Part shown: positions 7,118 to 61,886 of the stretch, piece after piece
Numbering within the stretch: the first letter of the stretch is position 1
Layout: the number at the start of each line of letters is the position of its first letter
Source of the DNA: Candidatus Altimarinota bacterium
GTDB taxonomy: Bacteria > Patescibacteriota > Gracilibacteria > BD1-5 > UBA6164
Direction: 5' to 3'
Length of the DNA stretch: 64,000 nucleotides
NCBI GenBank assembly: GCA_020629795.1
Contig: JAHDCR010000002.1
Span: 14,089-78,088 of the forward strand
Position numbers and translations under genes: made by a program
Notes under the pieces: generated by a model
The model's input: only the letters and a program-made list of their open reading frames with translations
The model's database searches: none
What the model was told of the DNA's origin: nothing

Positions 7118-7146
7118 TTGACAAATATTCGATAAAGTCTTATATT
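7118..7146 (+). promoter_or_regulatory. Sigma70-type promoter of the GC-rich cassette
   Basis: A perfect -35 TTGACA (7118-7123), a 17-nt spacer and -10 TATATT (7141-7146). Transcription would start near 7153 and run into the GC-rich segment that ends at the terminator near 7564. It is one of the best consensus promoters in the window. Confidence 0.8.
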
Positions 7147-7187
7147 TATAAATACCACATAAGTTGATTCTAGTGGAACGGAAGCTT

Positions 7188-7225
7188 CTCCCGATTGAGG
7201 AGTAAAAAACAGTCCAAGTTGGACT
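7188..7225 (+). other. Two hairpins in the 5' leader of the cassette
   Basis: CTCC(7188-7191)/GGAG(7199-7202) encloses the sequence CGATTGA, and AGTCCA(7211-7216)/TGGACT(7220-7225) forms a 6-bp stem with a 3-nt loop. Both lie in the transcribed leader upstream of the Shine-Dalgarno site and could affect translation or RNA stability; that role is inferred. Confidence 0.5.
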
Positions 7226-7243
7226 AATAATAGGAGATTGCTA

Positions 7244-7345
7244 ATGGCAGTCGACCCAACAAACTGGAGGCTTGCTGCAAAGCTTGCCCAACAACAACAA
7301 GGCAGCGAGCAGCAGCCACAAACAATGCAGGAGAGCAAGAAATGA
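7244..7345 (+). CDS. 33-aa ORF, standard-code reading (TGA stop)
   Basis: A strong Shine-Dalgarno sequence, TAGGAG (7231-7236), precedes this ATG by 7 nt. The product is Gln-rich (begins MAVDPTNWRL) and ends Lys-Lys-TGA. The TGA overlaps the ATG of the next ORF as ATGA, the classic standard-code coupling. Under this genome's own code TGA would be glycine and the frame would run through the terminator to a TAA near 7650, inside the next gene. Composition is far more GC-rich than neighbours. No family recognised. It could instead be part of a noncoding RNA. Confidence 0.45.
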   Translation: MAVDPTNWRLAAKLAQQQQGSEQQPQTMQESKK

Positions 7346-7509
7346 GTCAACCCGTCCTTCCTGGTCTTGACCAGAAAACTCAGGTTCGTCCTATGAACAC
7401 TCGCGCCCCTAATGGTGCAGATGCCAAGTTCCCTAGGGAAGCTGAAGCTTTGCGCGAAATGGGCTGCGGTGATTTGCTCCGAAATACAACCGACGACTTG
7501 CCCGATTGA
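7342..7509 (+). CDS. 55-aa ORF, standard-code reading (TGA stop)
   Basis: Begins MSQPVLPGL, overlaps the previous ORF by 4 nt (ATGA), and ends Leu-Pro-Asp-TGA. Its four glycines are all GGN, whereas genes around it use TGA for many glycines. Under code 25 it would continue through the terminator stem to TAA at about 7577. The sequence is charged and soluble, with two Cys-free ends and one Cys near residue 42; no family recognised. The pairing with the upstream ORF, GC content and lack of TGA-Gly suggest recent import from a standard-code source. Confidence 0.45.
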   Translation: MSQPVLPGLDQKTQVRPMNTRAPNGADAKFPREAEALREMGCGDLLRNTTDDLPD

Positions 7510-7532
7510 GGCATTTCGCGACAAAACAGGGA

Positions 7533-7564
7533 GAGTTCGATGCGTTTGCATCGGCTCTTTTTCT
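7533..7564 (+). terminator. Rho-independent terminator of the GC-rich cassette
   Basis: Stem CGATGC/GCATCG (7538-7543 with 7548-7553), loop GTTT, extended by GAG/CTC across a bulge and followed by TTTTTC. It closes the GC-rich segment before the helicase gene. Confidence 0.75.
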
Positions 7565-7619
7565 TTATGTATTTTTAAGATATTTTTTGTTATAAATGAT
7601 ATCTGTATATACTCAGTGT

Positions 7620-10600
7620 ATGAATACACAAAAATTTGAAGAGACATATAATATGCTCAATGAGCAGCAGCGAGACGCTGTAGATACTCTGGATGGACCA
7701 GTTATGGTTATTGCTGGTCCTGGAACAGGTAAGACGCAGATTATCGGAGCCAGAACTGCAAACATCATACTCAAGGCTTGAGTCGATCCACAGAATATTC
7801 TGATTACTACCTTTACGGAGGCTTGAGTGATAGCAATACGTGAGCGTCTTATTGATATGATTTGAAGTGATGCATATAAAGTAAATGTATCTACGATTCA
7901 TAGTTTTTCTCAAGATGTCATAAAGAGCTTTCCAGAAAAGTTTACAGTGGAAAAGCTTGATACTCCTATCGATGATATAGAGTCTCTTGAGCTTATAAGC
8001 TCTATAGTATCAGATATGCTAAAACGCGATGAGTTAAAATACCTTACGAGCTACGGTGATACACTATTTTACGTACGAAGTATTAAGTCTGCTATAAATA
8101 ATCTCAAGAGAGAATGAGTAAGTCCATCGAGTTTTGCAAAATCAATCATAGATGAAGAGCAAGAATCTCTTGCTTGGCTCGAAGAAAAGAGAAATAACAA
8201 GCGAATCAAGAAAATAGAGAACTACGAGACTCAACATGAAGAAAAAATAGGAAAACTTAGAGAACTACAGAGTATTTTTGAGATGTACAATGCTCAGCTT
8301 CGAGAACGTCATCTCTATGATTTCAATGATATGATTAATTTTGTATTAGAAAAATTCAGAGAGGATGAGATGCTCAGAGCGTTTTATGCAGAAACGTATC
8401 AGTATATCATGCTGGATGAGTACCAAGATACGAATAATCCTCAAAATGAGATTATAGACTTGATTCTTAGCTATGAGGAGGGTAATAATATTATGGTAGT
8501 ATGAGATGATGATCAATCAATCTACAGATTTCAAGGTGCAAATATTGAAAATATGCTCGATTTTACAGCGAAGTATGATAATACAAAAATAATAGTTTTA
8601 GATAAAAATTATAGATCACAACAGTGAGTATTAGATGCTTCAAAAAATCTAATAGAAAACAATTCTGAGAGGCTTATATCTCGTATCCCTGGACTTGATA
8701 AACAGCTTTTTGCGCAGAGAGGATTTACAGTGCAAAAGCCAGAACTCTATATGGCTCTCTCTGATATTGATGAGAGACTTTATGTTTTAGACGAAATTAA
8801 AAAGTTACTACGTACTTGAACCCATGCAGATGAAATTGCAGTAATAGTAAGAAGTAATAGAGAAATAGAAGAGTGGTGAAATCTACTTACTGAAAGTGAT
8901 ATTGCAATTACATCAAAGCTTGAAAGTAATATTTTAGACTCGGATTATATTTCTTCTATATTAACTTTATTTAAGATATTAGAAAATCCCTATAGTGACG
9001 AAACTGGCTTTATTAATTTACTTAGAAGTTCTCTAAGTGATATTAAAACAATGGATGTTCTGAAAATATCTACCTATCTTTACAGAGAGAACTATGTAAG
9101 AAGAGGAAATAAACTTAAGATTTTTGATATTCTCAGAGATCCTGCAGCATTAGAAGTGATAGGAATCGAAAATACAAGTGAGATTTCTAAATTTGTAGAG
9201 AATTATCTAGATGTACAAAGACAATTTTCTGAAAGTAATTTTCTTATAGGTCTTTCTCATTTTTTAAATGTATTTTGAATTTTTAAACATATACATAAAC
9301 AGTGAAATTTTGAAGATATGCAAGATGTGTATACTCTTTTTCATACTATTAAGTCTTGGAGTCAATTTAGAAAAGATTTATCACTCGAAACAGTACTTGC
9401 AAAGTTTGAGCTCTACACAAAATATGGATATAGAATTAATAGACTCTCCCAAGATGAATCATCTCAGTGAGTACAAATAGTGACAGCCCACAGTTCAAAG
9501 TGACTTGAGTACGAACATGTATTTATGCCAGGTTTATATAGCTGAAATTGGGATTCAAAAGCCAATAGAGATCTCATTAAGCTCCCAGAAGGTATTGCGT
9601 GAGATGGGTTACAGTTTGCGCTGCTGGAAGAAATGTCAGATGCCGAGCGTAAAAAATATGAAAAAGATAGGCAAACCCAAGAGGACAGAAGACTCTTCTT
9701 TGTTGCTCTAACGCGCGCAAAGTATTCTCTTAATCTGAGTTTTCCTGCGAGTATACTCTGAAAACCAAAAATTATTTCACCATTTGTCACTGAGCTATGA
9801 GATATTGAATATATAGAATCGATAACTAATAAGGAAGATATAAAGTGAGATATGCAAAGAGAAATGCTCCAAGAGTCTAAATTTATTTCATATAGTAATG
9901 ATGAACTAGATTATATTGTTAGCTTTATGAAAAATTATAGGCTATCTGCGAGTGATCTCAACTGTTTTCTCGTAGATCCAGGTGAGTTTTTAAAACGTAG
10001 TGTGTATAAGTATCCTTTTGAAGAAAATGAAAATTCTATATTTGGTACTATGGTCCATAGAACTTTAGAGTTATTTTATAAAAAAATTCAAGAGACAGGT
10101 GAGGTTCAAGATTTTGAATATATAGAGTATGTGTACCTGAGGCAGCTTGAGAGAGAATACCTTAGTAGCGAAGAGCGACTGAGACTCAAAAAGAGAGGAC
10201 TTGAATCTCTCAGGGGATACTATGATACCTACAGTTGAACATTTGTAGCTCCTCTGAAGACTGAGTATAAATTTAGTAGGAGAAATATATTTTATGAGGG
10301 AATACCAATAACTGGTATTATCGATAAAATAGAACTACTGAGTGAAGACTTCTCAGAAAATGTATGAGGTTGAAGTTTATTTTCTCAAAGTATCAAAATC
10401 ACAGATTATAAAACAGGATCTGCTAAATATATGTGAGATATTAAATGAATTGATAAAGACTGAAACAAAGATGAGTGATTTGAGAGAGGGAAGTATGGAA
10501 GGCAACTTATGTTCTATAAACTGCTTTTTGAAAATGATTATGAACTATCTTCTGCCTATAATCTCACAGGACTCGAACTCGATTTTTGTGAATGAAAAAA

Positions 10601-10730
10601 ATGAAACTATAAACGAGTTGAAGTAGAGTTTAGTGATGAGGAATATCAAGAATTTAAAGAATTAGTTTCTCAAACATATAAACAGATGACTGATATTAAT
10701 TTCTGGAAAGAGTATTTATGAATTAATTAG
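7620..10730 (+). CDS. UvrD/Rep-type helicase fused to RecB-like PD-(D/E)XK nuclease
   Basis: 1036 aa. The N-terminal half is a superfamily 1A helicase: Walker A GPGTGKT (residues 33-39) and motif II LDEYQDT (265-271). The C-terminal about 230 aa form a RecB/AddB-type nuclease with GTMVHRTLELF (His813), GIIDKIEL (Asp902) and TDYKTG (Asp929, Lys931), so all catalytic residues are present. Such fusions process DNA ends for recombinational repair. ATG 7596 is in frame upstream, but 7620 gives the usual N-terminus. A second UvrD-family gene without the nuclease lies at 14173. Confidence 0.85.
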
Positions 10731-10815: not shown

Positions 10816-12015
10816 ATGCAACTTAAATGAAATAGAGTTATTTGATTTACACTTGTGGAACTGATTGTAGTTATAACTATAGTCTGAATTCTTTCAACTA
10901 TTTGATTTGTGAGTTATTCTGGGTATTTAACATGAGCTAGAGACTCAAATAGAATTTCACAATTAACAAAGTTATCAGATTCTCTTCAAGTCTATTCAGC
11001 ATCTAAAACTCTTCCACTACCAGATGATTCTATAACTATTTCGGCTTCTTGAAGTAGTAATATTATCTGATATCAATGATTTGTTGGTGTAGATGTATTA
11101 GAAACTATTGATTATACTAATGGTTGAAAAGACCCCAAAGATGATTCGTATTATACATATTATCTTACAAAAGATAGAAGTTCTATCCAATTAATGTCAC
11201 TAATGGAAGAAGCCTCTTCTGTAGCGCAATTAAATACTTTTAAGCAGAGTTACTGACAGTTTGAAGAAAGATTTCCAAAAGTATATGGTCGTAAGTTATG
11301 AATTATAACTCAGTCTGATACAAATCTCCCGGTTCAAAATTTAGTATGAGTTGATAATTTTGATGTAGTAAACGAGTGAGATTCATTCGTTGCTCATATT
11401 TCTCCTGAAGAAGATATAGAGTGAGATGGTTCTGAGTTGAGAGCAGTTATACCAAATGGTTCATGTAAAAGAATCAAGCAAACAGGAGGATCTAAATGAA
11501 ATTGATACTATACTATAAATCCAAGTGGAAGCTGAGATGTTACTGTATATTGTGATATGGAAACAAATTGATGAGGTTGGACTATGGTATCACGAAGTAT
11601 TGATAACTCTGATTTTGACTGATTACCATTTGGTTGGTTTGTGTCTATGGGGTCTCCTGAAGATAATTCAGCTCCTTATTCACTTTGAAATCAAGTCCGT
11701 AATATTCCTTTCGAAACGGTATATCTTACGGTTTATGATTCTGGAAAAAACATTACATGAGTTACGTCATTAGAAGTAAATGATGATGATATATTTGGAG
11801 GTGGTAATGGAACAAACTCTATAGCAGTGGAATGATGTGAAGGACCAGAAGTTGCTCCTTGAGTTACTAGCTGCGCACTGTTTAGTTATTGGGGGAAATT
11901 TGATAGTACTGAGAGTTACTGGTTCTCTAATAATCCATCTGATACTGACGATGGTTTAAATAGAAGAAGGTATGGTGCAACATTTCCTTTTCCATGAATG
12001 ATTTTTGTAAAGTAA
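10816..12015 (+). CDS. Type IV pilin-like protein with fibrinogen-like C-terminal domain
   Basis: 399 aa. The N-terminus is a class III prepilin signal: short basic leader, Gly10, then FTLVE (11-15) and a hydrophobic helix to about residue 34, for cleavage by PilD and assembly into a pilus. The C-terminal half matches the fibrinogen/collagen-C-type fold: SCKRI (Cys217), YCDMETNGGGWTMVSR (Cys246) and two later cysteines. In animals and some bacteria these domains bind glycans or acetylated ligands. A surface adhesin is the likely role; the ligand is unknown. Start codon lies 3 nt after the terminator stem. Confidence 0.75.
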
Positions 12016-30142: not shown

Positions 30143-30200
30143 GCATATTAAAAAATACTGTGATACGATTATTATGTAATTTATTATTTACTTTTGTATT

Positions 30201-30395
30201 ATGACTTGGAAAAATGCTTTTCATAGAGCTGTAAAAAAGGAAATGCAGCCAATGAGACAAGCGACACATTGGATTATTTTTATCTCTTGTGCTGTTGCTG
30301 CTACTTGTATTACTGTCGGAAGTGCTTCTGCTGCTTCTGCAAAACTTATTAAAATGAATCCAGAAATTGCTACGTCTTCATGGCTAGTTCAATAA
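30201..30395 (+). CDS. Membrane microprotein, copy 1 of tandem pair
   Basis: 64 aa. A basic amphipathic N-terminus, MTWKNAFHRAVKKEMQPMRQ, is followed by one hydrophobic helix (HWIIFISCAVAATCITVGSA) and a short tail ending in WLVQ. It shares about 30 nearly identical N-terminal residues and similar ends (NPEIAxSSWL) with the next gene 20 nt downstream. No TGA glycine. Function unknown; it could be a small pore-forming or signal peptide, or a short surface protein. Confidence 0.65.
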   Translation: MTWKNAFHRAVKKEMQPMRQATHWIIFISCAVAATCITVGSASAASAKLIKMNPEIATSSWLVQ

Positions 30396-30415
30396 TTATT
30401 TTTTAAACAACTATT

Positions 30416-30622
30416 ATGACTTGGAAAAATGCTTTACACAGAGCTATCAAAAAAGAAATGCAACCAATGAGACAAGCAACTCACTGGATTATCTTTATTT
30501 CTTGCGCAATGAGCTTTATGTTTGGAACTGTACATGGTGCAGCTCTTGCATCTTATGAGATGATTATTGCTAATCCAGAAATAGCAAGTTCATCTTGGCT
30601 TTCACAAGGTTGGTTCTACTAG
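30416..30622 (+). CDS. Membrane microprotein, copy 2 of tandem pair
   Basis: 68 aa paralogue of the preceding gene. N-terminal MTWKNALHRAIKKEMQPMRQ and helix HWIIFISCAMSFMFGTVHG are conserved, while the segment after the helix and the C-terminus (SQGWFY) differ. The identical starts and similar spacing point to a tandem gene duplication with divergence of the C-terminal half. Confidence 0.65.
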   Translation: MTWKNALHRAIKKEMQPMRQATHWIIFISCAMSFMFGTVHGAALASYEMIIANPEIASSSWLSQGWFY

Positions 30623-61484: not shown

Positions 61485-61489
61485 TAAAG

Positions 61490-61519
61490 CAAAAGCAGCG
61501 CTGAATAGCGCTGCTTAAA
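61490..61519. terminator. Bidirectional terminator
   Basis: Perfect inverted repeat AAGCAGCGCT/AGCGCTGCTT (61493-61502 with 61507-61516), loop GAAT, with A and T runs on both sides. It ends the pfkB gene and, on the minus strand, the 79-aa ORF whose TGA lies 11 nt away. Confidence 0.85.
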
Positions 61520-61527
61520 ATGATACT

Positions 61528-61767
61528 TCAACCAGTATATTGAGGAGACTGGCCGGCTTGAAACGCTGCAATTTCTCGTAAAGCTAATTCTCTTATGGCC
61601 TCATCGGAAATAGTTTGTTCCCAGTACTTGGGGGTATTTTTTTTGCTCAGATCCCCCTGTATACATTCAAAGCATTTTTCTATGAACTTGCGATCTGGTT
61701 CGATCGGCTCACCGATGATTGCTTTGATTTTCTTTCTAACTTTTGTTGTCGAAAGTGGTGCCTGCAT
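61528..61767 (-). CDS. 79-aa ORF, standard-code reading (TGA stop)
   Basis: A Shine-Dalgarno AGGGAG lies 9 nt upstream of the ATG. The product is charged and soluble (begins MQAPLSTTKVRKKIKA, ends QSPQYTG), with one FECIQGDL cysteine region. All glycines are GGN codons, none TGA. The TGA stop falls 11 nt before a perfect terminator stem; read as glycine, the frame continues through the terminator for about 35 more codons. GC content is above that of neighbours. Family not recognised. Like the ORFs at 7244-7509 it behaves as a standard-code gene. Confidence 0.5.
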   Translation of the reverse strand: MQAPLSTTKVRKKIKAIIGEPIEPDRKFIEKCFECIQGDLSKKNTPKYWEQTISDEAIRELALREIAAFQAGQSPQYTG

Positions 61768-61859
61768 GTTTTTTTTCTCCCTATATGCTGCTATCAGACT
61801 ATCCGTTCATCTTTCCATAAGTTTTATTCTTCGAAAAGTTTGAGTGGATAACATTGGAT

Positions 61860-61886
61860 TATAATGTTTTTATAATAATGTCAAGA
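61860..61886 (-). promoter_or_regulatory. Promoter-like sequence for the 79-aa ORF
   Basis: On the minus strand TTGACA is followed 15 nt later by TATAAT, a near-consensus pair with a slightly short spacer. Transcription would begin near 61850, giving a leader of about 80 nt before the Shine-Dalgarno site. Confidence 0.6.

Follow-up and report, generated by a model that had tools for sequence, protein, structure and literature searches.

The transferred DNA (T-DNA) of Agrobacterium carries genes that are written in the expression grammar of the recipient. Phage moron genes are autonomous units of promoter, open reading frame (ORF) and terminator, with a foreign composition and a precise presence or absence, whilst non-stop genes of the ArfA type encode a small, often basic product and have a terminator before the in-frame stop. 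Effectors of secretion systems are usually made by the ribosomes of the producer and exported as proteins. Finally, phages that are compatible with the standard code (code 11) are known from the Gracilibacteria and Absconditabacteria; these are whole phage genomes, and their prophages use code 25 (PMC10746230). Here, we describe a cassette that resembles each of these systems in part. It is located at positions 7118–7564 of a 64,000 nucleotide stretch (the window) from Candidatus Altimarinota bacterium (GenBank assembly GCA_020629795.1, contig JAHDCR010000002.1, positions 14,089 to 78,088 of the forward strand) and comprises a pair of standard-code genes in a Gracilibacteria genome that reads TGA as glycine (code 25). 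Cassettes fill the same chromosomal slot throughout the genus, and they may be genes kept for expression in another cell.

Results

Anatomy of the cassette

Every element listed in the initial annotation was found at 7118–7563, on the forward strand. A sigma70-type promoter, TTGACA-17-TATATT, spans 7118–7146 (−35 TTGACA at 7118–7123, −10 TATATT at 7141–7146). It is followed by an AGGAG Shine–Dalgarno (SD) site at 7232–7236 and by ORF1 (7244–7345), which under translation table 11 encodes 33 amino acids (MAVDPTNWRLAAKLAQQQQGSEQQPQTMQESKK) and ends in TGA. A second AGGAG, at 7329–7333, lies inside ORF1 and belongs to ORF2 (7342–7509; table 11, 55 amino acids), which also ends in TGA and whose start overlaps the ORF1 stop as ATGA. 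The promoter and both SD sites were read directly. The unit is closed by an intrinsic terminator at 7533–7563, with the stem CGATGC/GCATCG, a GAG/CTC extension and a run of T. The description of the cassette as GC-rich was borne out (up to 53% GC, compared to a genome mean of 32.4%), as was the claim that its message would be non-stop in code 25: both frames pass the terminator hairpin, that of ORF1 extending to 7651 and that of ORF2 to 7578. It had also been noted that both ORFs use only GGN glycines. That is indeed the case, but it is partly so by construction, since a table 11 ORF stops at its first TGA, and the observation therefore carries weight only when combined with comparative data.

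The genome that carries the cassette is 1.1 Mb in size, on 22 contigs; we analyzed 1.09 of its 1.11 Mb, without the ends of five small contigs. ARAGORN identified a tRNA with anticodon UCA, which is a glycine tRNA under code 25, and native genes use TGA for 44% of their glycine codons and stop at TAA or TAG. Six of the eight genomes of the genus each contain one class-I release factor, which falls under the RF2 cut-off. Four of these factors were translated, and each shows a PxT-type motif and lacks SPF, the pattern expected of an RF1; the class-I release factor search of the eight genomes found no RF2-type factor. In a limited set of conserved native genes, those for ribosomal proteins among them, TGA still makes up 21–40% of the glycine codons; the absence of TGA glycines from the cassettes can therefore not be put down to high expression alone.

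Conservation of the slot

The cassette is flanked upstream by a transglutaminase-like gene (PF04473; 5340–7091) and downstream by a gene for a UvrD helicase with a PDDEXK nuclease domain (7596–10730), both on the forward strand and in code 25. The two genes served as synteny anchors, and the slot between them was located in other genomes with the upstream protein as anchor (the window genome is labelled G000, and the genome of a sister genus G008). All nine genomes, eight of the genus plus G008, contain a cassette there (9/9), although the one in G006 is interrupted by a contig end. The congeners were deposited as Candidatus Gracilibacteria metagenome-assembled genomes (MAGs), and the slot genomes include several that were deposited independently. 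In more distant genera, the GC-rich block is absent.

The content of the slot differs from species to species. A DNA search in the relatives returned almost nothing beyond 43 nt of the promoter region, which are 84% identical at the same site in G006, and the N-terminus of ORF1 is similar to the truncated G006 ORF, MAECNYWRA. The products are mostly short and many are rich in lysine and arginine; one ORF is common to G004 and G005. A native gene would have a TAA or TAG stop and internal TGA glycines. Seven of the nine slot ORFs instead end in TGA (that of G001 in tandem TGA-TGA), and in all seven the code 25 frame passes the terminator. The other two end in TAA (G004) and TAG (G008), and these stops lie at the normal position before the terminator and do not end a longer product. 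No in-frame TGA within a conserved protein was found at the related loci. The initial proposal, a standard-code gene pair retained by a recoded genome, has good support and is true of the whole genus.

The ORF shared by G004 and G005 was also informative about selection and age, for this one species pair. Its differences are distributed 4/2/22 over the three codon positions, with 0.083 nonsynonymous (dN) and 1.48 synonymous (dS) substitutions per site, and hence a dN/dS of about 0.06, so that it is under strong purifying selection at the protein level. The adjacent UvrD segment gave a dN of 0.078 and a dS of 1.45 for the same pair; given such similar values, the slot ORF and its neighbor are of about the same age, and the ORF is conserved as a protein. 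The GC content at third codon positions (GC3) of the ORF is 0.52 and 0.46 in the two genomes, compared to a native average of about 0.22; values of at least 0.45 occur in <1% of native 46-codon windows. Neither lineage has therefore drifted toward native codon usage. Arginine in the slot ORFs is encoded by CGN at 29 of 37 positions, compared to 60–65% AGA in native genes.

Two suggestions of the initial annotation were not supported by these comparisons. A recent import is at odds with a slot that is filled in 9/9 genomes, an ORF with the dS of its neighbor, and foreign-type codon usage that persists in both lineages. Likewise, an RNA without a translated function finds no support, given the protein-level selection on the G004/G005 ORF. 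We prefer the reading that the cassettes would go untranslated in the carrying cell.

Expression signals

Native genes of the genus make little use of SD sites. In G000, an SD match of at least 4 nt was found at 38 of 784 genes, compared to 77 in an upstream control window, and SD sites were likewise not enriched in G005, nor when an altered anti-SD was taken as the reference. Such an altered anti-SD is found at the 16S 3′ end of three congeners (L110, L111, L112), which reads GGACTATCTCCTTA in place of GGATCACCTCCTTA; the 16S 3′ ends of other families (L109, L113) are still more degenerate. In the SR1/Absconditabacteria, SD sites are reported to be scarce and the CCUCC core to be missing (PMC10783764). 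The cassettes, meanwhile, have SD sites such as GGAGG, AGGAG and even AGGAGGTGA.

Promoter spacing differs as well. The native spacer length peaks at 16 bp: G000 has 58 sites with this spacer and 17 with one of 17 bp, and G005 has 44 and 15, respectively. Among the native tRNA promoters, those with good matches have spacers of 15–16 bp in most cases. A 17 bp spacer was found in all seven slot promoters with a recognizable −35 element; the promoters of G001 and G003 are weaker.

Cassettes outside the slot

The window contains a second cassette at 61489–61884, on the reverse strand, with the promoter TTGACA-15-TATAAT (61858–61884), an ORF of 79 amino acids ending in TGA (61528–61767), and a terminator (61489–61516). 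Its site is empty in G005, where the flanking genes are about 11 nt apart. There are further units in G000 and several in G005, as well as candidates in G024, from another family, and for some cassettes empty sites were found in other species, with about 2–60 nt between the flanking genes. A second slot is common to G000 and G005; in its G000 version two ORFs are joined by ATGA, and the native code reaches a TAG two codons past the junction.

Three cassettes, in G000, G004 and G005, have a common 5′ untranslated region (5′UTR) and terminator, differing N-termini, and a conserved C-terminal stretch. The 5′UTR module, TAGCTTAATAGRCATCCCT, and its near-identical terminator occur at different chromosomal sites (G000:C18:12140–12600, G005:C7:142700–143060 and L196); a scan of viral contigs for the module found none. 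A neighboring cassette ORF of 53 amino acids, compared between G004 (L196) and G005 (C7:143166–143327), has a dN of 0.23 that exceeds its dS of 0.14, which suggests diversifying selection. Read by eye, and with no prediction tool, three cassette products have apparent signal peptides.

Over 24 cassette ORFs, there were 10 TGA, 10 TAA, and 4 TAG stops. In the TAA- or TAG-ended ORFs, all 45 glycines are GGN, compared to the native TGA share of 44%, a count that is partly conditioned because the cassettes outside the slot were picked by a table 11 detector; the slot set, located by synteny, is free of this conditioning. Intergenic units of SD, ORF, and terminator numbered seven in G000, compared to a mean of 2.4 (maximum 6) with permuted SD cores. 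This excess is modest alone, and it is the synteny evidence that is decisive.

A candidate cassette at 30252–30395 of the window was rejected as one copy of a tandem family of small, near-identical native genes (MTWKNAFHRAVKKEMQPMRQATHWII...) that occupies 30160–30600 and is also found in G005. An intergenic region, G000:C10:4045–4586, is GC-rich (57% GC) and structured-looking, has no SD-ORF, and is probably a native structured RNA. Downstream of the UvrD gene, window positions 10816–12015 encode a protein with an N-terminal methylation motif like that of type IV pilins (PF07963), followed by a match to the fibrinogen C-terminal domain (PF00147); it is possibly a host-recognition pilin.

Database searches

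Neither peptide could be assigned to a family: ORF1 had no family match, and ORF2 had no significant match in Pfam, PHROGs, NCBIfam, phages, plasmids, or viral contigs. As to phage homology, there were only PHROG matches at E 0.01 or weaker, and the searches of phages and viral contigs were blank; the flanking genes of the cassette are non-phage genes. The cassette DNA gave nothing significant against phages and plasmids. The search for a donor was made among phages, plasmids, viral contigs, and family libraries, and did not go deep into host genomes. There was no Rfam match to the cassette; a weak RAGATH-30 match on the strand opposite the promoter (E 0.38) was discarded as chance. The covariance model for transfer-messenger RNA (tmRNA; RF00023) had no match within the window, and the possibility that the cassette is itself a tmRNA was ruled out, as the genome's own tmRNA sits elsewhere (G000:C1:11685–12143). 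No cassette product matched the ArfA family in Pfam or NCBIfam. We found no report of such cassettes in the open-access literature.

Discussion

In the explanation that we favor, at slightly better than even chances, the cassettes would encode small effectors and be retained for a standard-code host cell to express. Each would be a fast-evolving mini-gene, held by the Gracilibacterium and written for a standard-code reader, which would most likely be a host or prey bacterium. With the spacing of its promoter, its SD sites, codons, TGA stops, ATGA coupling, and terminator, the unit would be transcribed and translated correctly in a normal bacterium, whereas in the carrier, where no RF2-type factor was found and SD sites are little used, most copies would give rise to non-stop mRNA. 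The product would then act in the host cell. What reaches that cell may be DNA, as the promoter looks tuned to a foreign RNA polymerase, or, with lower probability, mRNA; the 17 bp spacer leans toward host transcription of delivered DNA, the alternative being native transcription followed by export of the RNA. Relatives among the Absconditabacteria feed on Gammaproteobacteria (PMC8080830, PMC13059738), and the type IV secretion systems (T4SS) of Patescibacteria are akin to conjugation machines and have few relaxases (PMC12102498). A T4SS ATPase of the VirB4/TraG type (PF19044) is present in seven of eight congeners, and any link between it and the cassettes is a guess.

Several observations speak against expression in a foreign cell. 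Two slot ORFs have the TAA (G004) and TAG (G008) stops of native genes, and that of G008, which is AT-rich (27% GC), could be native. The cassette at 7118–7564 has the SD AGGAGAT, which matches both the standard anti-SD and the altered one of the congeners, and so is not diagnostic alone; moreover, the altered anti-SD is known from congeners, as the 16S gene is missing from the G000 assembly. The gene for tRNA-Gly(UCA) has a good promoter with a 17 bp spacer, so that this spacing can be read natively, and outside the slot the spacing of cassette promoters varies from 15 to 18 bp. As to delivery, a search of the genus (eight genomes) for relaxases, made with the PF03432 family and with no other, nor for oriT, was negative, and no delivery signal was found for the cassettes.

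The cassettes might instead be captured imports, that is, small, self-sufficient genes from standard-code hosts or from the phages of these hosts, which would be acquired by DNA uptake, would insert repeatedly at permissive intergenic sites, and would be selfish or neutral in the Gracilibacterium. Such an origin would account for their foreign composition, for the precise empty sites of several of them, and for the different ORFs held by the same slot; DNA uptake is expected in the clade (PMC8080830), and Gracilibacteria phages compatible with code 11 are known (PMC10746230). However, it sits poorly with the occupation of a single slot in nine of nine genomes, a promoter common to G000 and G006, and an ORF in G004 and G005 that is as old as the neighboring gene, under purifying selection, and undrifted in its codon usage. 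Nor was a donor found in the phages, plasmids, viral contigs, and families searched. Since long retention and selection argue against passive import, we regard this explanation as unlikely, albeit one to be taken seriously.

A reading in which the cassettes are native regulatory genes, whose non-stop product is tagged by tmRNA and appears only when rescue fails, as for ArfA, strikes us as improbable. Several products are small and basic, the native frame contains the terminator, and the genus has a tmRNA; yet G004, G008, and many other cassettes have TAA or TAG stops, the sequences are unrelated, some have apparent signal peptides, and the SD sites, promoter spacing, codon usage, ATGA coupling at TGA, and the tandem TGA-TGA of G001 would be left unexplained. 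A structured non-coding RNA with incidental ORFs is more doubtful still. The cassette is GC-rich and its whole transcript folds better than shuffled sequences (z −3.3), but the 5′UTR by itself is not unusual in structure (z −0.8), for which reason its hairpins were rejected as a defining feature; in addition, there is no Rfam match, and the sole slot pair that could be compared has the codon-position pattern and dN/dS of a protein-coding gene. Lastly, the source data are MAGs, in which chimeras of assembly or binning may arise, a possibility that the initial annotation raised. We give this hardly any credence here, as the cassettes lie within contigs and between code 25 genes, and as MAGs that were deposited independently have them at one and the same site.

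If the cassettes are indeed effector genes for a standard-code cell, they would be like the T-DNA in that the promoter, translation signals, and codons of the carried genes fit another cell. Signals and code of the recipient type were found here in the TGA stops, SD sites, 17 bp spacer, CGN arginines, and GC3. The cassettes differ from the T-DNA in that no borders or relaxase are in evidence and transfer is presumed; the carrier and its putative recipient would both be bacteria, the barrier would be the genetic code together with the loss of SD usage, and the units are single mini-genes and not a plasmid segment. With the phages compatible with code 11 they share coding DNA that is free of TGA glycines and tied to code 25 bacteria, but they are single chromosomal units, not observed inside phage gene clusters, with their own promoter and terminator. 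As with morons, they are autonomous, foreign in composition, and precisely present or absent; in contrast to morons, they lie in no recognized prophage, fill one site in every congener, and have an SD and a stop foreign to the carrier. The terminator precedes the in-frame stop of the native code in seven of nine slot ORFs, and the products are small and often basic, much as in ArfA-type genes, from which the TAA- or TAG-ended members, the unrelated sequences, and the lack of a Pfam match set them apart. Finally, the products are small, fast-evolving, and variable, some with apparent signal peptides, and the carrier is host-dependent, all of which recalls secreted effectors, yet the cassettes do not appear to be encoded for translation in the producer.

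More broadly, we tentatively propose, at somewhat less than even chances, that host-dependent bacteria with a recoded genome maintain sets of genes meant for their standard-code prey and deliver them as nucleic acid, so that the polymerase and ribosomes of the host express the effectors, whilst recoding blocks their proper production in the producer. If true, this would be a bacterium-to-bacterium case of genes held in the code and expression signals of another organism. TGA stops and SD sites in a recoded genome devoid of SD usage would flag candidate host-directed genes without recourse to homology, and the mode of action of Gracilibacteria and Absconditabacteria on their hosts would become directly testable with short, defined sequences.
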